Shown: positions 29,888 through 41,509 of the stretch, one piece after another | Position numbering within the stretch: position 1 is the first letter of the stretch | Layout: every line of letters begins with the position of its first letter | DNA from: Flavobacterium wongokense | GTDB lineage: Bacteria > Bacteroidota > Bacteroidia > Flavobacteriales > Flavobacteriaceae | Direction: 5' to 3' | Length of the DNA: 64,000 bases | NCBI RefSeq assembly: GCF_021608265.1 | Contig: NZ_JAKIHP010000001.1 | Location: 124,001-188,000, forward strand | Position numbers and translations under genes: made by a program | Notes under the pieces: generated by a model | Database searches by the model: none | The model's input: the letters and a program-made list of their open reading frames with translations, nothing else | What the model was told of the DNA's origin: nothing

Positions 29888-29895
29888 TAGTTTTG
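29888..29895 (+). promoter_or_regulatory. promoter -7 element TAGTTTTG
   Basis: TAGTTTTG matches TAnnTTTG, 69 bp upstream of the ATG at 29965. No TTG is found at the -33 position; the motif repeat occupies it. It overlaps an upstream in-frame start candidate (29893), which is therefore unlikely to be used. Confidence 0.5.
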
Positions 29896-29964
29896 AAATG
29901 TCAAATAAAACAAAATGGAGTTCGACTTCATTTAAATAATAAAAATCATAATAACCCCAGAGTT

Positions 29965-32900
29965 ATGAAAAAATTATTACTTAAATCGGAAAAATCAATA
30001 CTATTAATCTTCTTATTAGTAGTAACCTCAATAAGCAGAGGACAAAGTACCCAAACTTATACGACTCCCGGCGGGACATTCGTTACCCCAGCAGGTATTT
30101 CAACCGTTCAGGCTGAAGCCTATGGTGCTGGTGGTGGTGGTGGCTACGGTGGAAGCTCAAGCAGAAATGGCGGCGGCGGTGGCGGCGGTGGTGGTTATAC
30201 CATCAATGCAACTACTCCTGTTGTAGGTGGAACCTCTTATACTATTACCGTTGGTGGTGCCGGTTCTGCCGGAATCAGCTCAAGTGTAAATGGTGGTACT
30301 GGTGGACAGACTACTGCAACATTTGGTGCTACTGTAACTGCAACTGGTGGAACAGGTGGAAAAGGATATTCTACCGGAGCTACAGGTGGTAGTGGTGGTA
30401 ACGGAACCAGAAGTGGTGGTAATGGTGCTAATGGTAACGCAAGTTATTCAGGTGGTGGTGGTGGTGCAGCTGGCTCAAGTGTCGGTGGAAGCACAACAAC
30501 ATCTGCTGCTGGTGCTAATGGCGGACTTTTATCAGGCGCCGGTGGTGCGGGAAATAATTCAAGTGGTAATCCTGGTGTAGTTGGTGCAGCTGGTGTAAAC
30601 TATGGTGGTGGTGGTGCCGGTGGTACCAGAAACGCAAACGGTGGTGCAGGTGCTCCTGGTTATATGAAGATCACTTACACTTGCCCAACTTATGCATTAA
30701 CTTCAACTTCTTCTTCTAACCTATGTGGATCGGGTGCGGCTACTGTGAACCTTACCGGATTGGCTTCAGGTTTAGGAGTTGGTACTTATACTGTAACTTA
30801 TAATCTTGCAGGATTCCCTTCATCAACAGGTAATACAGCTACAATGACGGTAACTACTGCAGGGACAGGTACTTTCACAACTTCTACTTTGAATGTAGGA
30901 ACAACTACCATAACTGTTACGAACCTTGCTTCATCATACTGTTCAAATGCTATTTCAACAAATAATACTGCCAACGTTACCGTTGTCGGTGTGCCTGATG
31001 CTACTGCCGGAACAAATGTTACCACTTGTGCTACTGCAGGAGCGGTAAATATTACAGCAGGATCAAGCGCTTTAAATGCTACTGGTGGTATTGCCTGGAC
31101 TTCTAGCGGAACTGGTACCTTTGCAAATCCAAACTCAACTTCTGCATGTACTTATACTCCAACTGCTGCTGATATCCTTGCCGGAAGCGTAACAATTACA
31201 TTAACTGCAACAGGATCTGCTCCTTGTAGCGTTGATACCTCAAACAAAACATTGACGATTAGCAGTGCTATGACCGTTTTTGCAGGAGGAAACCTTACTG
31301 CATGCGGTACTTCACCAATCAGCGTTACTTCTGGTTGCAGTGCTACAAATGCTACAACTACAACTTGGTCTTCAAGTGGAACAGGTACTTTTTCAAATGC
31401 AGCTTCATTGACAACTTGTACTTATACTCCAAGTGCTGCCGATGTTGCTGCGGGAAGTGTTACCATTACTTTGACAGCTTCAAATGCAGGTTGCCCTAAT
31501 GTTACTTCAACGAAAACAATAACAATTAATGGTACTGCCACTGCAGTTGCAGGAACAGCAATCAATACCTGTACACTTTCTGGTGCAGTGAATATCACTG
31601 CCGGCTCTAGTGCAACTAATTATTCTTCGGTATTATGGACTTCAAGTGGTTCAGGAACATTTGCAAATGCAAATTCATTGACTACTTGTACTTATAACCC
31701 AAGTGCTGCAGATATTTTAGCTGGTACAGTTACATTAACATTGACTGCTTATGGTATGTCTCCTTGTGGAAATGTTACTTCAACAAAATCATTTACAGTA
31801 AGAAGTGCAATGGTTGTTGTAGCAGGAACTAATGTTACTATGTGTGCTAGTACTGCTTCTGTAAATATTACCGCAGGTTCAAGTGCTACAAACCAAACTT
31901 TGGTAACATGGACATCAAGTGGAACGGGTACTTTTGCGAGTCCAAATTCATTAACCCTATGTACTTATACTCCAAGTGCGGCAGATAAAGCTGCAGGAAG
32001 TGTTACATTGACTTTGACTGCTTCAAACGGTGGTTGTCCTGATGTAACTTCAACAAAGACATTGACAATTACTCCAGCTGCTACTGCAGTTGCGGGTTCA
32101 ACTATCAATACTTGTTCTACAACCGGTGCAGTTAATATTACTGCAGGTTCAAGTGCTACAAATCAATCAAGTGTGTTATGGACTTCAAGCGGAGGCGGAA
32201 CTATTACAAATGGTACTTCGCTAACAACTTGTACGTATACTCCAACTGCTGCAGAAAATACTGCCGGAAGTACTATTACCTTAACTTTAACAGCTTACGG
32301 AAACTCTCCTTGTGGAAACGTAACTGCAACAAAATCATTAATCATCAGTAGGGCAATGACTGTATCTGCAGGAGCTAACCAAACTGTTTGTTATGCTAGT
32401 GGTTCAATAAGTTTTACAGGTGCTACTGCAACTAATCATACTGGTGTTACCTGGACGTCAAGCGGAACAGGTACATTTACCAATCCAAACTCATTAGGAG
32501 CATGTTCTTATACTCCAAGTGCAGCAGATATCGTTGCCGGAAGTGTTACAATCACTTTGACCGCTACGAATAATGGTTGTGCACCTCTTGCATCAACCAA
32601 AACATTGACAATCAATACAACTCCAACAGCTGTTGCGGGACCAGCAATGGGAACATGTACATCTTACGGAGCTACAAACATTACGACAGGTTCAAGTGCT
32701 ACTTACCAATCAAGTGTGTTATGGACTTCAAGCGGAACGGGTTCTTTTGCAAATGCTACTTCATTAACAACTTGTACGTATACTCCAAGTGCTGCTGACA
32801 TTACTGCAGGAAGCGTTACGCTAACCTTGACAGCTTATGGAAATGCACCTTGTGGTAATACTACATCGACAAAAACACTAACAATTACAACAACTCCAAC

Positions 32901-35900
32901 AGTAACCGGAACTACTCCAGGTTCAAGAACAGGAGCCGGAACAGTATTGTTAGGTGCTACTGTATCAGGAGGAACTCCAACATGGTACGCTGCTGCAACT
33001 GGAGGTACAGCATTAGGAACGGGAACAAGTTTTACAACTCCTGTTATTTCAGCAACTACTACTTTTTATGTTGAAGCTGCTAACGGAAGCTGTGCTTCTA
33101 GCCCTAGAACTGCAGTAATTGCAACTGTAAATTATACCGAAATCGACATTCAGGGTAATGCTACTTCAATTGTAAGTGGCGATATTACTCCATCTGCTTC
33201 AGATTGGACTGATTTTGGAACAACAAACCCAACCAGGACTTTCACAATCCGTAATATGGGTATGTCATTATTGACTGTAGGTGCAATTACCATCTCGGGA
33301 GCTAATGCAAGTGAGTTTACAGTAACAACCGCACCAAGTGCTACTGTTGCAATTGGTTCATCTACAACATTTGTAGTAACTTTTGCACCAACAGCTGTAG
33401 GTGTAAGAACAGCTAATATTTCTATCGTAAATAATGACGGCGACGAAAACCCATATACTTTTGATGTTCAGGGAACTGGAGTTTTACAGGAAATGGACAT
33501 TCAAGGAAATGCAACAAGTATCGTTGATGGTGATATGTCTCCAACTACAGGTGACTGGACAGACTTTAGTACTGTAGCAGGAACAAGGACTTTCACAATC
33601 CGTAACCTTGGAAACATTGCTTTAACTGTTGGTACAATTACTATCGGTGGTACAAATGCTTCTGACTTTTCAGTAACGACTGCCCCAGCTGCTACTGTTG
33701 GTGCTTACGGAACAACTACTTTTGTGGTAACATTTGCTCCAACTGCAATCAATACAAGAACAGCCAGTATCAGCATCGTAAATAACGATACTAACGAAAA
33801 CCCATATGATTTCGGAATCCAGGGATTTGGTATTATACCGGAAATTGATATCCAGGGTAATGCTACTTCAATCACTGATAGTACAGTACCTGCCCCGACT
33901 ACAGCAAACTGGACGGATTTTGGTTCAACCAACGGAACAAGGACATTTACTATCTATAACACAGGAAATATCACATTAACTGTTGGAGCTATAACCTTTA
34001 CAGGTACAAATGCTTCAGAGTTCACCGTTACAACTCCTCCTGCGGCATCTATAGCTGCCTTTAGCAGCACTACATTTGTAGTAACGTTTTTACCAACAGC
34101 AACCGGAACAAGATCAGCGGTAATTCATATTGTAAATAATGACAGTACTGAAAACCCATACGATTTCAACATTCAGGGAACTGGAGTGCCAAGAGAAATT
34201 GACGTACAGGGTCTTGGCCTTTCAATTGCAAGTGCCGATATGGTAACTTCTGTAAATGATGGAACAGACTTTGGTTCTGCAGATATCAATCTTGCAACAA
34301 TTACACGTACTTTCACTATCAGAAATACAGGGACTCTCGCTTTGACTATCTCTAACCCTACTATTACAGGAGCCAATTCTGGTGACTTTAGCATCACCGC
34401 TAATCCTGGAACATTATCTATCGGAGCTGGTGCAAGTACAACATTCCAGGTGACTTTCAACCCAAGTGCTGTATTTACAAGAATTGCACAAATCAACATC
34501 GTAAATAACGATAGTGATGAAAACCCATACTATTTTGGAATCCAGGGAACTGGTTTACTAGATAACGACGGTGACGGTATCGAAAACAATACAGACCAGG
34601 ATGACGATAACGACGGAGTAATTGATACTATCGAGTGTGGTACTTGTATTAGTGACCCATTCGTAAATGGAGGTTTTGAAGCACCGGTTATCGGAACTGC
34701 AACTTACAGCATCGAACCTGCTGCTAACGTAACAGGTTGGAATAACAGCGCGGAAAACTTTATTGAAATCTGGAGTACCGGATTCAACGGAGTACCTTCT
34801 GCAGCAGGAAATCAATTTGCAGAATTAAATGCGAACGTAGCAGGAAATCTTTATCAGACATTTTGTTTGAATGGTGCCGGTGGAACAATCAATTGGGCAA
34901 TCAAACACAGAGGAAGATCAGGTACAGATACTGCACAGGTACGTTTTGGTCCTGATTTGGCATCACTTACAACAGTTGCTACCATGACTGACGGAAATAC
35001 AGCCTGGGGATCTTATTCAGGTACTTATACCATACCAGCAGGTCAAACTACTATTGTTCTTGCCTTTACAGCAGTTTCATCTACAGGAGGTTTATCTTAT
35101 GGTAACTTTATTGATGACGTACAGATTATCATCAACCAAAACTGTATCGATACAGACAGTGATGGTGTAGCGGATATCCTTGATGTGGATGATGACAATG
35201 ATGGTATTCCGGATATTGAAGAAGCTGGATTCAAACAATACAGTAACAACACCGGTACTATGGATAAAACAAATCCTGCGAACTGGAAAGACCTTAACGG
35301 AAATGGAATCAATGACTACATCGATACGATGATTTCCGGAGGAACTTACCTAATCCCTGACAGTGATGGAGACGGAGTTTACAATCACTTGGATTTGGAT
35401 AGCGACAATGACACATTATGGGATGTTGATGAGGCTAACTTATTGAACGGTGACGGAGATATCAACGACGATGGTAAAGGTGACGGTGCAGATTCTGAAG
35501 GTGATGGTTTATTAAACCTATTCGATAATTCAACTGTATTCGGATCTGCTTACAGAGCTTATGCTCAGGATAGTGATTCAAATGGTATCTCAGATTATCT
35601 ACAATTGGATTCAAATGATGATGGTACCAATGATATACAGACTAGCTTATATGGCAGTTATGACACTAATGGTGATGGTAGGATCGACGGAACTGGTGAT
35701 ACTGATCTTGACGGTATTCCGAATGTATTTGATACGAATGATGCCTTGAGAGGTTCACCAAGAGACTTAGACAGAAAACTGTTCCTTGAATTTGATGGAA
35801 GAAACGATTATGCAGAAGATTCACCTGTACTTGGCGGATTATCTAATGCAACATTGATGGCCTGGATTGACTTAAACAGTGCTTACAGTAGTACTGGAGT

Positions 35901-38274
35901 AGTTGTTGGTCAGGATAGATTCCACATCAGGGTAACTGGTTCGAAAATATTACAGGCTGTTGTGAACGGAACGATATTATCATACGGAACTCCGTTAAAC
36001 ACATCACAATGGTGCCACGTTGCAGCTACTTATGCCGGAGGTACATTAACATTGTACTTAAACGGGAAATCTGTAGCCAATGTAGCATTGAGCGGAGCAA
36101 TTTCTGCTGATACGTCTAATTTGACTTTGGGTAAAAACCCACTTACAGCTACCAGCTACTTCAAAGGGAAAATCGATGAAGTTAGAGTATTCAATGTTGC
36201 ATTGACTGCTGTTCAGGTAGAAAGAATGGTATACCAGGAAATTCAAAATAACTCATCACAGGTAAGAGGTGCAATTGTTCCTAAAGATGTAGGTTCACTG
36301 CCTTGGACAAACTTGGTGAAATACTATAGAATGGATACGTACAAAGATGATATCGTTGACAACTTAACAACTGGAACTGTAGATACAGGAACCGGAATGA
36401 AATTGTACAACCACAAAGTGATTAATGTACAACAAGCTCCAATGCCATTTACAACTGTAAGAACAGGATCGTTCTCATCAGCAGTGAATGATGCAACAAA
36501 AGACATCAGAGGTTTGGACGTTTTGGATTTTGATTATTCAATCATCCAGGTAAACCATGATATTACTGAGACGGCAAACAGCACTGATTTAGCTTTGTTT
36601 GTAAATTCAGGTGTAACAGTTAACATGACTAATGATACGAAGCTTCAAAATGATTGGTACTTATTGTTAAATGGTAAAATCGATTTGGCTGGAAAATCGC
36701 AATTGATTCAAACAACCAACTCCGATTTAGATGTAACAAGTGCCGGTTCTCTTGAAAGAGACCAACAAGGTCAGTCGAACAAGTTCAACTATAACTATTG
36801 GTCATCTCCGGTAAGTTCAATCAACAATACAACCATCAACCACGGATTTACGGTAGCTGGTGTTATGAAAGACGGAACTACGGCTACGCCTCAAAGTTTA
36901 CAATGGACAACGGGAATCAATGGTTCACCAACAACTCCACTTACATTGAGCAGCTATTGGATATTTAAATTCCAAAATTCAACTAACTCTTATGCAAACT
37001 GGGCGTCAGTTGGACAAAACGGAGCTTTAACACCTGGACAAGGATTTACACTGAAAGGTGGTGGTGCAGCGACATCAAACCAAAACTATACATTCGTTGG
37101 TAAGCCAAATAGCGGAATCATTACCTCAACAGTAGGTGCAAACAACCTAAACCTTTGTGGTAACCCTTATCCATCTGCAATCGATGCGAACCAATTCATT
37201 GATGACAACGCAAGTAGTATCAAAGGTACATTGTACATCTGGGAACACTATATTACAAATACTTCCCACAATACAATTGCTTACCAAGGTGGTTATGCAA
37301 CGTATACCAAAACTGGAGGAACTTCTCCTGTAGCTCCAGCCGGAGTTAGTGGATTGGGTTCTAGCAGCAAAGTAGCTAAGAGGTTTATCCCGGTTGGACA
37401 AGGATTCTTTGTAACAGGATCTGCAACCGGAGGAACGATTACCTTCAACAACGGCCAACGTTTATTCGTTAAGGAAGATGATGCGGTGAATTCGTATTCA
37501 TTGTACAAAGCTCCAAACAGCACTGTTGCTGTAGAAACTAATCCTTTAATGAATAACGCTCAGGACGAAGTGACTGAAGAAGAATTCATGAAGTTAAGAG
37601 TGGGTTACAACTCAACTGACAACTATCACAGACAGACATTGCTTGGATTCATGAACGAACATGCAACGTCAGGTTATGATAACGGTTATGATGGTGTAAG
37701 CATCGAAGCATTGACCAACGACATGTATTTCATCAATGGAACAGACAAGCTGAACATTAATGGTGATGGTTTCTTTAATGTAAACAACATTTATCCGTTA
37801 GGTGTTAAAAATGCAACTTCAGGAAATGTAACCTTCGTAGTAGACAACAAAGAGAATTTTGATGATGACCAGGAGATTTACATCTTCGATAACGTAACTA
37901 ATACTTACAACAGCATCAAATCTCAAAACTACCAGGTAAATCTTCCTGCGGGAACTTACGAAGACCGATTCTCATTGAGATTCACAAACGGTACAAGTCT
38001 TGGAACAAGCGATAATGAAAACAATCATGGAATTACGGTGACACACTCACAATCCAACAACATGATCAACATTAAAAACGCGTTACAGGAAGTAACTGTA
38101 AAATCGGTTGCCTTATTCAACTTATTGGGGCAACAGGTTACAGAATGGAAAGTTGAAAACCAAGACCAGGCTAATATTCAATTACAGGTTTCAGACGTAA
38201 GCACAGGAACATACATTGTAAAAGTCCTTACTGACGGTGGTAAAATCACTAAAAAGATCCTGGTAAAAAAATAA
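29965..38274 (+). CDS. giant secreted multidomain adhesin with T9SS type A sorting domain
   Basis: The product is 2769 residues. It has a signal peptide (SILLIFLLVVTSISRGQ) and a very Gly-rich domain (about 40-220) typical of glycine-rich Bacteroidota adhesins. Seven Ig-like repeats of about 90 residues follow (AGTNVTTC...NITAGSS...WTSSGTGTF...CTYTPSAAD...SVTITLTA). Next come four choice-of-anchor D repeats (DIQGNATSI...TRTFTIRN...TFAPTA...IVNNDxxENPYxFxIQGTG), thrombospondin type 3 calcium motifs (DNDGDGIENNTDQDDDNDGV and three more such clusters), a LamG-like domain (LFLEFDGRNDYAEDSP), and a long C-terminal part. The last 90 residues are a type A sorting domain (VALFNLLGQQV, GTYIVKVL, KKILVKK). 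It is expected at the cell surface as an adhesin. The upstream start at 29893 is less likely because the -7 element overlaps it. Confidence 0.9.
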   Translation: MKKLLLKSEKSILLIFLLVVTSISRGQSTQTYTTPGGTFVTPAGISTVQAEAYGAGGGGGYGGSSSRNGGGGGGGGGYTINATTPVVGGTSYTITVGGAGSAGISSSVNGGTGGQTTATFGATVTATGGTGGKGYSTGATGGSGGNGTRSGGNGANGNASYSGGGGGAAGSSVGGSTTTSAAGANGGLLSGAGGAGNNSSGNPGVVGAAGVNYGGGGAGGTRNANGGAGAPGYMKITYTCPTYALTSTSSSNLCGSGAATVNLTGLASGLGVGTYTVTYNLAGFPSSTGNTATMTVTTAGTGTFTTSTLNVGTTTITVTNLASSYCSNAISTNNTANVTVVGVPDATAGTNVTTCATAGAVNITAGSSALNATGGIAWTSSGTGTFANPNSTSACTYTPTAADILAGSVTITLTATGSAPCSVDTSNKTLTISSAMTVFAGGNLTACGTSPISVTSGCSATNATTTTWSSSGTGTFSNAASLTTCTYTPSAADVAAGSVTITLTASNAGCPNVTSTKTITINGTATAVAGTAINTCTLSGAVNITAGSSATNYSSVLWTSSGSGTFANANSLTTCTYNPSAADILAGTVTLTLTAYGMSPCGNVTSTKSFTVRSAMVVVAGTNVTMCASTASVNITAGSSATNQTLVTWTSSGTGTFASPNSLTLCTYTPSAADKAAGSVTLTLTASNGGCPDVTSTKTLTITPAATAVAGSTINTCSTTGAVNITAGSSATNQSSVLWTSSGGGTITNGTSLTTCTYTPTAAENTAGSTITLTLTAYGNSPCGNVTATKSLIISRAMTVSAGANQTVCYASGSISFTGATATNHTGVTWTSSGTGTFTNPNSLGACSYTPSAADIVAGSVTITLTATNNGCAPLASTKTLTINTTPTAVAGPAMGTCTSYGATNITTGSSATYQSSVLWTSSGTGSFANATSLTTCTYTPSAADITAGSVTLTLTAYGNAPCGNTTSTKTLTITTTPTVTGTTPGSRTGAGTVLLGATVSGGTPTWYAAATGGTALGTGTSFTTPVISATTTFYVEAANGSCASSPRTAVIATVNYTEIDIQGNATSIVSGDITPSASDWTDFGTTNPTRTFTIRNMGMSLLTVGAITISGANASEFTVTTAPSATVAIGSSTTFVVTFAPTAVGVRTANISIVNNDGDENPYTFDVQGTGVLQEMDIQGNATSIVDGDMSPTTGDWTDFSTVAGTRTFTIRNLGNIALTVGTITIGGTNASDFSVTTAPAATVGAYGTTTFVVTFAPTAINTRTASISIVNNDTNENPYDFGIQGFGIIPEIDIQGNATSITDSTVPAPTTANWTDFGSTNGTRTFTIYNTGNITLTVGAITFTGTNASEFTVTTPPAASIAAFSSTTFVVTFLPTATGTRSAVIHIVNNDSTENPYDFNIQGTGVPREIDVQGLGLSIASADMVTSVNDGTDFGSADINLATITRTFTIRNTGTLALTISNPTITGANSGDFSITANPGTLSIGAGASTTFQVTFNPSAVFTRIAQINIVNNDSDENPYYFGIQGTGLLDNDGDGIENNTDQDDDNDGVIDTIECGTCISDPFVNGGFEAPVIGTATYSIEPAANVTGWNNSAENFIEIWSTGFNGVPSAAGNQFAELNANVAGNLYQTFCLNGAGGTINWAIKHRGRSGTDTAQVRFGPDLASLTTVATMTDGNTAWGSYSGTYTIPAGQTTIVLAFTAVSSTGGLSYGNFIDDVQIIINQNCIDTDSDGVADILDVDDDNDGIPDIEEAGFKQYSNNTGTMDKTNPANWKDLNGNGINDYIDTMISGGTYLIPDSDGDGVYNHLDLDSDNDTLWDVDEANLLNGDGDINDDGKGDGADSEGDGLLNLFDNSTVFGSAYRAYAQDSDSNGISDYLQLDSNDDGTNDIQTSLYGSYDTNGDGRIDGTGDTDLDGIPNVFDTNDALRGSPRDLDRKLFLEFDGRNDYAEDSPVLGGLSNATLMAWIDLNSAYSSTGVVVGQDRFHIRVTGSKILQAVVNGTILSYGTPLNTSQWCHVAATYAGGTLTLYLNGKSVANVALSGAISADTSNLTLGKNPLTATSYFKGKIDEVRVFNVALTAVQVERMVYQEIQNNSSQVRGAIVPKDVGSLPWTNLVKYYRMDTYKDDIVDNLTTGTVDTGTGMKLYNHKVINVQQAPMPFTTVRTGSFSSAVNDATKDIRGLDVLDFDYSIIQVNHDITETANSTDLALFVNSGVTVNMTNDTKLQNDWYLLLNGKIDLAGKSQLIQTTNSDLDVTSAGSLERDQQGQSNKFNYNYWSSPVSSINNTTINHGFTVAGVMKDGTTATPQSLQWTTGINGSPTTPLTLSSYWIFKFQNSTNSYANWASVGQNGALTPGQGFTLKGGGAATSNQNYTFVGKPNSGIITSTVGANNLNLCGNPYPSAIDANQFIDDNASSIKGTLYIWEHYITNTSHNTIAYQGGYATYTKTGGTSPVAPAGVSGLGSSSKVAKRFIPVGQGFFVTGSATGGTITFNNGQRLFVKEDDAVNSYSLYKAPNSTVAVETNPLMNNAQDEVTEEEFMKLRVGYNSTDNYHRQTLLGFMNEHATSGYDNGYDGVSIEALTNDMYFINGTDKLNINGDGFFNVNNIYPLGVKNATSGNVTFVVDNKENFDDDQEIYIFDNVTNTYNSIKSQNYQVNLPAGTYEDRFSLRFTNGTSLGTSDNENNHGITVTHSQSNNMINIKNALQEVTVKSVALFNLLGQQVTEWKVENQDQANIQLQVSDVSTGTYIVKVLTDGGKITKKILVKK
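31000..32892 (+). repeat. seven Ig-like repeats of about 270 bp, alternating subtypes
   Basis: Units of about 90 codons share WTSSGTGTF and CTYTPSAAD. Units 3, 5 and 7 (ending SPCGNVTSTK-like, AYG before it) resemble each other more than their neighbours. Units 2, 4 and 6 (ending GCPxxTSTK-like, ASN or ATN before it) form the other set. The order ABABAB implies a higher-order period of about 540 bp. Confidence 0.75.
33139..34557 (+). repeat. four choice-of-anchor D repeats
   Basis: Four consecutive units of about 115-120 codons each begin E(I/M)D(I/V)QG and end ENPYxFxIQGTG. The first three start with near-identical DNA coding for IQGNATSI; the fourth (VQGLGLSI) is the most diverged. Confidence 0.8.
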
Positions 38275-38498: not shown

Positions 38499-40157
38499 CT
38501 AACCCAGCTTTTTGACAAGTTCCTCAATATTTAATCGAAGCTGTTCTCCCGAATTAAGGTCTTTCAGCGTAAAGTTCGAACCTTCAATCTCCTTAACAAA
38601 AAAAGGAATGTTCCTATTCTTTACATATTTAAACTGTTTGTCTTCCTTAGCCGCATCCGGATAAAGTTCCGCCTTGATATTGCGGCTTCTTAAAACTGCA
38701 ATCGCTTTCATGGCATTAAAAGCCTGTTCGTCATTGTAGTTAAAAAACAATACTTTTGTCGTATCGGTAACCGTTTCCGGAAATAATTTCAACTCTTCCA
38801 GAACCAGGTAAATCCGGTCGAGTCCAAACGAAATCCCAACACCACTGATATCCTTCAAACCAAAAATCCCGGTCAGGTCATCATAACGGCCTCCTCCTCC
38901 TATCGAACCCATCGCAACACCTTCTGGCGCCGAAACTTCAAAAATGGCTCCGGTATAATAATTCAGTCCACGTGCCAAAGTCACATCCAAATCCAAACTC
39001 GCTTTCTGCAATCCCAATCTGGTTACATTATCACATATAAAACGCAGCTCTTCAATTCCTTTCTTCCCTTCTTCAGACGAGGAAAGCAAGCCTGAAAGCT
39101 TTTCTATTTTTTCCTCTATCGTTCCGGTGAAATTGAATAAAGGTTGTACTTTTTCCAAAGCAGCTTCCGAAATCCCTTTTTCAAGCATTTCCTTTTTAAC
39201 GCCTTCTGCTCCTATTTTATCCAATTTGTCCAACGCAACGGTAAAGTCAATCAGCTTATCCGAAGCACCAATCACCTCAGCAATTCCCGATAATATTTTT
39301 CGGTTGTTAATTTTAATCGTAACGCCATTCAGACCCAAATCGGCAAAAACCGCATCGTACAATTGCACCAATTCCACTTCCTGCCACAACGATTTAGAAC
39401 CCACTACATCGGCATCACATTGATAAAATTCACGGAACCTTCCTTTCTGTGGTTTATCGGCACGCCAAACCGGTTGAATCTGGTAGCGCTTAAATGGAAA
39501 TGAAAACTCGCTTTGATGCTGTACTACATAACGTGCAAACGGAACGGTAAGGTCGTAACGCAGGGCTTTTTCGGAGATATCGGAAGCCAAATATTTGGCT
39601 TGTACATTTGACATGAATTTCCCAAAGATTGCCATAGAATAAAATCTGATGACATTATTATCTATGTTGAAGTTAGCTATGAAATGATTGAATTGTCCAC
39701 TATCTTCATCTAAAAACATTTTAGAAATAATAGGTTCAATTTCATCTCTTAGATTTTTATAATTAACTTTACTGATCTTTGTAAAAGGTTCAAAAGTTTG
39801 ACGAATTGCACTATCTATATAGGCCGCAACGATTCCGTTATAATTTTCTCCTTCTACGGCTAAGCCAGTTGAAAAATCCCTTAAATACCTAAGTGTTGTT
39901 TGAATAATTTCAATAACATTTTCATTAAAATTATCCAAAAAATCCCCCGAATTCAAAATCTTAAAAATCAAACGGTCACCTTCCTCGCCGTATTTTCCCA
40001 TCAGCGTATCGGAATTTTCAAACGACGGAGTCTCAATAGGCTGGTAACCAAACTTTTCAAAATGATTCCTCATTATCGAAATAATATAATTACGCTTGGA
40101 AACCTCTGCCGGTGAAAAATCTCTGGTGCCTTTTGGGATACTTGGTTTTGATGCCAT
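38499..40157 (-). CDS. hisS: histidyl-tRNA synthetase with a large insertion
   Basis: The product is 552 residues (ATG at 40157; an upstream TTG at 40187 is unlikely). It charges tRNA-His. It has SIPKGTRDF at the N-terminus, the [12 protein letters not shown] segment, motif 2 ([20 protein letters not shown]), the HisA-type motif [12 protein letters not shown], motif 3 ([11 protein letters not shown]), and a C-terminal anticodon-binding domain ([22 protein letters not shown]). It is about 80-100 residues longer than the usual bacterial chain of about 430-470. The extra residues lie at about 75-195, between motif 1 ([10 protein letters not shown]) and [11 protein letters not shown]. See the finding at 39573-39935. 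Confidence 0.95.
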
Positions 40158-40258
40158 TTTTGATGGGTATTTATGAATACTGTGCAAATATCAATATTTT
40201 ATGGCTCATTGTAAATATTCTTGTAACAAAAACTGTATTTTAGTGTCAAATTTGCGCT

Positions 40259-41509
40259 ATGCTAGGAATCGGTCTGTTAAGTGAAAATATAAAAATTGCG
40301 TTGGGTTCCATCCGAACGCAACTTCTTCGTACCATTTTAACGATAGTCATCATTGCTATCGGAATCACAGCACTGGTCGGAATCCTCACGGTCGTAACCG
40401 CGATTGACTACAATCTGACTTCGAGTTTTGCCTCAATGGGTTCCAACACCTTCAATATTACACAATATGAAAGTACCCTTCGTGAAGATGGTGGTGGCGA
40501 GGTTGAAAAGATAAATCCGATTATTTCCTATCCTCAGGCCAAGGCGTTTAAGGAAAACTACCATTATCCGATGACACAGACTTCGTTGTCATTTACAGCC
40601 ACTGCAAACGCCGAAGTCAAGTATGAAAACCAAAAAACCGATCCTGAAATCCAGGTTCTGGGAATCGATGAATATTTCCTGGCCAATTCCGGCGAAGAGG
40701 TAGTCAACGGTAGGAACTTCAATACATTCGACATTTCCAACAATGTCTATTCCTGCATCGTAGGCTCTGATTTTGCCACAAAAGGATTGCTGAAAGATGT
40801 CAACCCAATTGGAAAAACATTATCCATACGCGGAGCCAAATTCAAGGTTATCGGTGTATTAAAGGAAAAAGGTTCCACCTTTGGCAACAGCCGCGACCTT
40901 CGTATAATGATTCCGATTCAGTTGGCACGTTCCATTTTTTCGGCACCCAACATCAATTATTCCGTGAGCACGATGATTCAAAAAACCGAATTACTCGATG
41001 CGGCAATTGAAAATGCAATTGTTACGATGCGTCAAATTAGGAAACTGAATCCGGTTGAAGAAGATAATTTTGGCATTTCCCGAAGCGATGACTTAATCCA
41101 TAAAATTGCTGAAATAACAGATGTTTTAGGCGCTTCTGCCTGGATCATGGGTATCATTACCATTTTGGGTTCCTCGATTGCCTTAATGAATATCATGATT
41201 GTTTCGGTGACCGAAAGGACGCGCGAAATTGGCGTGCGAAAAGCACTTGGCGCCAAGAAGAGTACCATTGCAATGCAGTTCTTTATCGAAACCCTGACCA
41301 TAGGGCAAATGGGCGGCATCATTGGGATTATTTTCGGAATCCTGATTGGTTACGGAATCTGCATAGCGGCGAAATGGGATTTTGTGATTCCATGGGGCGC
41401 GATGATGGCGGCTTTTGTGACCAGCTTTATTGTGGCTTTGGTTTCGGGATTGTATCCTGCTATAAAAGCGTCGCGCCTTGACCCTATTGAAGCATTGCGT
41501 TACGAGTAA
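40259..41509 (+). CDS. ABC transporter permease (MacB/FtsX type)
   Basis: The product is 416 residues. An N-terminal TM (LLRTILTIVIIAIGITALVGIL) is followed by a periplasmic domain of about 220 residues (MacB_PCD type, GSNTFNITQY to MIQKTELLDAAI) and three C-terminal TMs. The FtsX signature EIGVRKALGAKKSTIAMQFFIE lies between TM2 and TM3, and the chain ends YPAIKASRLDPIEALRYE. It needs a partner ATPase, which is not adjacent here. It is divergent from hisS. Substrate unknown (possibly lipoprotein, peptide or antibiotic export). Confidence 0.9.
   Translation: MLGIGLLSENIKIALGSIRTQLLRTILTIVIIAIGITALVGILTVVTAIDYNLTSSFASMGSNTFNITQYESTLREDGGGEVEKINPIISYPQAKAFKENYHYPMTQTSLSFTATANAEVKYENQKTDPEIQVLGIDEYFLANSGEEVVNGRNFNTFDISNNVYSCIVGSDFATKGLLKDVNPIGKTLSIRGAKFKVIGVLKEKGSTFGNSRDLRIMIPIQLARSIFSAPNINYSVSTMIQKTELLDAAIENAIVTMRQIRKLNPVEEDNFGISRSDDLIHKIAEITDVLGASAWIMGIITILGSSIALMNIMIVSVTERTREIGVRKALGAKKSTIAMQFFIETLTIGQMGGIIGIIFGILIGYGICIAAKWDFVIPWGAMMAAFVTSFIVALVSGLYPAIKASRLDPIEALRYE

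Follow-up and report, generated by a model that had tools for sequence, protein, structure and literature searches.

An exchangeable insert in the histidyl-tRNA synthetase of Flavobacterium wongokense and dissimilar inserts at the same loop in related bacteria

Class II aminoacyl-tRNA synthetases have insertion domains, such as the editing insertion of bacterial ProRS; insertions of this type are folded domains inside the catalytic core, homologous to each other and vertically kept in their lineage. Conserved flanks around a variable middle that is exchanged between lineages are familiar from the target-recognition domains of type I restriction HsdS and from surface antigens. Synthetases are also targets of toxins: HipA is reported to act on GltX and HipT on TrpS. 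The histidyl-tRNA synthetase (HisRS) described here is encoded in a stretch of 64,000 nucleotides of the Flavobacterium wongokense genome (the window), and it agrees with bacterial HisRS (TIGR00442; PDB 6nhi) in its catalytic core, its motifs, its anticodon domain and its overall fold. However, 6nhi has a short loop at the site where the window has 121 extra residues (chain residue 86 closes the first matched piece and residue 90 opens the second). As in ProRS-type insertions, the added segment is predicted to be a folded domain inside the catalytic core, but the HisRS site holds dissimilar, exchanged domains. It shares the conserved flanks, variable middle and inter-lineage exchange with HsdS and surface antigens but, unlike these, lies in an essential cytosolic translation enzyme. 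The explanation proposed below likewise has a synthetase hit by a protein antagonist, as in HipA/GltX and HipT/TrpS, with the difference that no antagonist directed at HisRS was found in our searches. We found no description of such a HisRS insert in the literature searched (PMC3532385 included), in which subscription papers and preprints are scarcely covered.

The hisS gene of the window and its insert

The hisS frame (Table 1) encodes 562 aa when read from a TTG; the ATG at 40155-40157 (M11) agrees with the homologues and is the likely start. The protein scored 361.4 bits against TIGR00442 (hisS equivalog), above the curated cut-off of 286.75, and matched 6nhi, the HisRS of Elizabethkingia, with an E value of 1.9e-162 in two pieces (query residues 13-90 and 194-557), leaving the stretch between them unmatched. 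The LRYDLT segment and the segments that we take to be motif 2, the HisRS signature and motif 3 are all intact. A full-length model matched 6nhi with Z 34.8 over 420 residues (rmsd 6.5); it is only fair (pTM 0.60; pLDDT 53-73 in the insert blocks and below 50 at residues 1-21, 55-83, 200-213 and 243-250), and as modelled the protein has the HisRS fold. A genome search returned this hisS as the only HisRS match, and the gene sits on a 1.37-Mb contig, so that both a duplicate gene and an artefact of a contig edge can be dismissed. Beside hisS lies a gene for a giant, repeat-rich protein of 2793 residues (29893-38274), the C-terminal end of which, as read from the sequence, resembles a type IX secretion sorting domain.

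Table 1. Features of the hisS locus, in positions of the window
Feature	Position	Strand	Evidence or state
hisS, histidine--tRNA ligase	38499..40187	-	open frame with stop; TIGR00442 and PDB 6nhi matches
Motif 3 region (11 residues)	38814..38846	-	intact
HisRS signature ARGLNYYTG	38949..38975	-	intact
Motif 2 region (30 residues)	39399..39488	-	intact
Segment of 10 residues, 3' flank of cassette	39534..39563	-	sequence comparison with G263
Family A insert, 121 residues, between NSGD and ISEKA	39579..39941	-	GC 0.289; five helices predicted
SG codons closing the conserved motif-1 segment	39945..39950	-	5' cassette junction of G263 directly past the next codon (D)
Permease-like protein (ABC-transporter type, read from sequence), upstream neighbour of hisS	40259..41509	+	open frame

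A preliminary description of this stretch had placed about 121 residues between motif 1 and LRYDLT, at 39573-39935. The length is confirmed (121 residues from NSGD to ISEKA, 127 from NSG to LRYDLT), and the strict coordinates lie 6 bases away. The same description had called the insert in frame, compatible with the catalytic motifs and more AT-rich than the flanking gene, and in all this it was correct: the reading frame is open through the insert, the catalytic segments are present, and the GC content is 0.289 (0.295 over the coordinates first proposed) versus 0.410 in the remaining hisS, where every same-length segment of the core is above the insert (minimum 0.383). Searched alone against Pfam and NCBIfam, the insert gave nothing significant and no curated family covers it. 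An intein was considered and rejected: no intein model was among the Pfam and NCBIfam matches and splice residues are absent. Intein splice junctions have Cys or Ser first and HN before Cys, Ser or Thr; the insert of the window begins with FLD and ends with LASD just before ISEKA.

Dissimilar inserts at one site and their distribution

The insert site is a single loop between the motif-1 segment and LRYDLT; going by class II architecture, it presumably lies close to the entrance of the active site, in the position of the AspRS flipping loop. The HisRS loop is either short, mostly 27 or 45 residues, or carries an insert longer than 90 residues, and these inserts fall into 13 mutually dissimilar families. 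Family A has 12 members (BLAST-aligned pairs are about 18-70% identical), and includes the insert of the window, which matches the family A profile over its full length at the HisRS site; family B comprises L061, L149, L150 and, from the genus, L213; the other eleven families are single sequences (L003, L020, L052, L055, L056, L122, L146, L148, L215, L216 and L217). L129, with 66 residues, was left out of the insert families. When the profiles of the 13 families were compared, the best probability over 78 pairs was 2.7%, versus 9.1% for the best of 132 shuffled comparisons, and split parts within families A and B, the positive control, scored 95-98%. With the ends kept, the profiles of families A and B gave a weak match (13.6%, 37 columns) at their shared C-terminal end. 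Mutual similarity between the 13 families is thus undetectable by profile, and a common fold may be hidden by divergence.

Loop lengths were compared in 131 rows, in which the gene of the window appears twice: the loop is of at most 30 residues (nearly always 27) in 93, of 40-50 in ten and of more than 60 in 28. Most congeners compared have a loop of 27 or 45 residues at the site. The short loop is itself of two main types within Flavobacterium, of 27 and about 45 residues (L009 versus L059 and others). A search for relatives gave a HisRS match in 59 of 60 genomes; among its 30 loci, the window included, the short loop is present in 27, and the remaining three, namely the window, L003 and L020, have a big insert. 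The preliminary description had named two things that would speak against its reading, the same insert in all close relatives or membership of a known HisRS subfamily; the short loop in 27 of these 30 loci and the lack of any family model covering the insert point the other way. One of the loci compared (L067), titled as a Bifidobacterium breve MAG, has a flavobacterial hisS (76% identical) and is therefore probably mislabelled or contaminated.

A HisRS match was obtained for 130 of the 138 genomes in the genus sample, and six of these 130 have an insert of more than 100 residues. Seven frames reach at least 530 aa: six owe this to a big insert (G000, G013, G075, G101, G078 and G089), G143 merely to a long N-terminal frame; the next longest frame has 503 aa, and four others of 494-502 aa (G133, G140, G093 and G077) have normal loops. 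The family sample gave 145 matches in 149 genomes, nine of them with an insert of more than 100 residues; the ten frames of at least 535 aa comprise nine with a big insert (G000, G530, G552, G505, G557, G528, G554, G452 and G426) and one with a normal loop (G525), the next longest having 499 aa. The window's own genome belongs to both samples and is included in both counts, which are minima because a gene truncated at a contig end or an insert far shorter than 100 residues could be missed. The insert of the window (family A) was found in three of 398 genomes of the genus at E <= 2e-11 (all other matches had E > 0.002); of 397 genomes of the family, 15 gave a match at E <= 0.01, nine with full-length inserts within hisS and six with weak partial matches. 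The phylum sample (296 genomes) gave three matches: two are carriers already known, and the third, in G1077, is weak and partial (E 1.6e-4) and does not lie at a HisRS LRYDLT-type segment in its locus; two long hisS frames of this sample (G879 and G887) have normal loops. As sampled, family A is a feature of the Flavobacteriaceae. Inserts outside this family were seen in L020 (another family of the order) and L122 (Sphingobacteriaceae), neither of which belongs to family A.

Movement, composition and surroundings of the inserts

The clearest case of movement is the genome G263, in which a family A insert of 122 residues stands in place of the 27-residue loop of six insert-less relatives. Outside the loop region, 45 of the 48 full blocks of 150 bases are 0.90-0.98 identical (the other three 0.82-0.88), identity to the relatives ends right past the NSGD codons and restarts inside the I(S/T)EKA codons, and the whole core is 92.5% identical to that of the insert-less L086. 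G263 is the sole example seen of replacement in such a closely similar gene; for the pairs of carrier and insert-less genes that come next, core identity is 84%. In a tree of 128 HisRS cores, of which 58 of the 124 inner branches are weakly supported, carriers are scattered among non-carriers, and the insert kind (three labels) changes nine times, compared with a mean of 9.9 after shuffling (a count as low occurred in 66 of 200 shuffles). On a second core tree of 124 rows, the 27 big-insert rows call for at least 23 changes, the 12 family A rows for at least 11 and the four family B rows for four, while loops of 40-50 residues switch with the short type eight times. All these counts are approximate because of the many weak branches, and they are not rates because carriers were deliberately sought. 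For family A, the two topologies conflict in AU tests (LG+G4, with a divergent insert alignment): that of the core is rejected on the insert data at p 1.4e-8, and that of the insert on the core data at p 7.6e-5. The gene of the window is an example: in the C-terminal part of the core, the window is 82% and L032 78% identical to L033, whereas the inserts of L032 and L033 are 66% identical and that of the window only 32-33% identical to either. Family A has therefore been transferred from one hisS to another separately from the core.

Inserts are poorer in GC than their own core in 27 of 27 carriers (mean 0.260 versus 0.386), and the same holds at third positions (0.200 versus 0.325, again lower in 27 of 27). 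Short loops are also mostly AT-rich compared with their own core, in 77 of 93 rows with up to 30 residues and in all ten with 40-50, but less so than the inserts (mean GC 0.339 and 0.301, respectively). The ratio dN/dS (NG86) of the inserts is 0.20-0.31 in six closer pairs with finite dS and about 0.49 in two pairs with the window, the pair L137/L138 being excluded, and that of the core 0.04-0.15 where dS was computable; because dS almost always exceeds 1, these values are rough. Inserts thus look constrained, yet faster-evolving than the core; a dN/dS below 1 indicates constraint rather than diversifying selection. Folded alone from an alignment of its 12 sequences, family A was predicted to form five helices (pLDDT 80, pTM 0.77). 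Foldseek found no match to this model at E <= 0.001 in the PDB or BFVD, and the best VIA-align Z was 4.7, a value compatible with either a known or a new fold; the modelled fold is thus without a recognised relative. Apart from the shared ISEKA end, family A is invariant only at N7, I14 and F110, a finding that speaks against an enzyme. The net charge is negative in 21 of 27 inserts, positive in five and zero in one, so that a general role in RNA binding is disfavoured.

We saw no neighbour gene travelling with the insert in the flanks of 11 carrier and 14 non-carrier loci, covered for up to 4.5 kb on each side and often for less. The open reading frames of these flanks form 40 clusters present in at least two loci, six of them in non-carriers only and one in carriers only (L053, L055, L122 and L167); the latter is taken as a shadow frame, because its three members with coordinates lie inside hisS on the opposite strand. 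A relative of the permease-like gene flanks hisS in five of the 11 carrier and eight of the 14 non-carrier loci. An altered tRNA-His as counterpart of the insert was also considered and dropped: by eye, G-1 and C73 are kept in all 20 genomes inspected (17 carriers and three non-carriers), and the tRNA-His gene is identical in the carrier G263 and the insert-less G012. The absence of both a carrier-linked neighbour and a tRNA change fits a partner acting in trans rather than a function in cis. The acceptor stem of tRNA-His, inspected by eye, has apparent T-T mismatches at about 5-68 and 6-67 in most of L171, L173, L174, L179, L180 and L182-L197.

Searches of phage, plasmid and IMG/VR records gave no convincing insert homologue on mobile DNA. 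The whole HisRS matched 16 phage and 94 plasmid records, with a query coverage of at most about 80% among the matches listed (20 plasmid records), which is too little for an insert plus the core. A joined query of family A and B inserts gave a short match in 13 phage records at E 0.3-0.4 (Bacteroides crAss-like by name among the ten matches listed) and none in plasmids; in IMG/VR there were two HisRS loci, both with short loops, and no family B insert was found. Four plasmid-listed records (H17-H20, from Prevotella, Phocaeicola, Bacteroides and Parabacteroides) have a hisS of Bacteroidales type, apparently without an insert; three of them are 107-278 kb long and could be true plasmids bearing hisS or mislabelled pieces of chromosome. 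No insert had a consistent toxin, immunity or defence match in the defence, phage and Pfam searches, which returned scattered weak matches; with PADLOC, the 12 family A members matched six families, each in one member, the best being a type II restriction enzyme model (E 4.2e-5).

The preliminary description had also suggested that the insert may be an acquired domain and may contact tRNA. The former is well supported by the patchy distribution, the AT-richness, the conflict between insert and core trees, and the clean replacement of a loop by a cassette in G263. Contact with tRNA finds no support, given the mostly acidic inserts and the same tRNA-His gene in a carrier and its close insert-less relative.

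Possible explanations and significance of the insert site

The best explanation, in our view, is that an exchangeable helical domain, made up of the 121 residues, occupies a swap site in the HisRS of Flavobacteriaceae; we give the explanation as a whole about an even chance of being right. Exchange would proceed by homologous recombination across the two conserved flanks, following uptake of foreign hisS DNA. Near the active-site entrance, the domain would be kept and swapped because it alters or blocks the binding of a variable protein antagonist of HisRS; candidates for such an antagonist are a toxin, a phage protein or a competitor protein, and rare insert forms would be favoured. The exchange of the insert is well supported for family A; its function is what we infer. 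Thirteen dissimilar inserts, patchiness, foreign composition, lateral movement and no partner in cis resemble the outcome of negative frequency-dependent selection by an antagonist, and since synthetases are known toxin targets we favour a role in escape or shielding; this step, taken alone, is tentative and perhaps somewhat more apt to be wrong than right. That most sampled species carry the short loop counts against the swap-domain explanation. Put in its most far-reaching form, the HisRS of Flavobacteriaceae would be the target of an arms race, in which a protein weapon (a phage protein, toxin or competitor effector) attacks the motif-1 hairpin and the bacteria escape by swapping unrelated, AT-rich shield domains from a large shared pool; this is conceivable, though we consider it rather unlikely.

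The main rival to an escape or shield role is a permissive loop, a hairpin tip that tolerates any in-frame foreign segment, so that the inserts are near-neutral filler, gained and lost by illegitimate events, and have no adaptive role. The absence of a recognisable function from all inserts fits this, as do the few invariant residues of family A and the variation of the short loop itself (27 versus about 45 residues, with its changes on the core tree). However, neutral filler would be expected to decay and has no reason to be AT-rich in all carriers, whereas family A stays recognisable across many genera, with dN/dS of about 0.2-0.3 in closer pairs, and has both a predicted fold and a record of transfer; we therefore think the permissive loop unlikely, if still a serious contender. 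An accessory domain with an ordinary cellular job (binding of tRNA-His, allosteric regulation or a moonlighting partner) would agree with a segment that is in frame, appears folded and lies between catalytic motifs, but a single job is hard to square with 13 dissimilar sequences at one site, and the mostly acidic inserts, the conserved tRNA-His and the lack of a linked neighbour make it quite improbable.

The shared site and broadly similar size of the inserts would also be expected from a single ancient insert, lost on many occasions and otherwise diverged past recognition. The families would then be one fold and transfer would be unneeded; folding from an own alignment covers family A only, so that one fold may underlie them all. 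Against this stand the core of G263, whose neighbours are hisS genes that lack an insert and share one conserved loop type, the conflict of insert and core trees, and the profile comparison, which found no trace of kinship between families, and common descent of this kind is the least probable of the alternatives.

The enzyme of the window is thus a HisRS of the ordinary kind whose domain polymorphism is unusual. Translation enzymes serve as stable, mostly vertically inherited markers, and it is unexpected that a site in a synthetase holds dissimilar domains, of which one kind or more is traded between species. Phylogenies based on hisS should therefore be used with caution unless the insert loop is masked. 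A swap site in HisRS would point to a hidden selective agent, for the discovery of which the natural variants are a ready set, and if the arms race is true, an essential synthetase would be a polymorphic immunity determinant in the Flavobacteriaceae.
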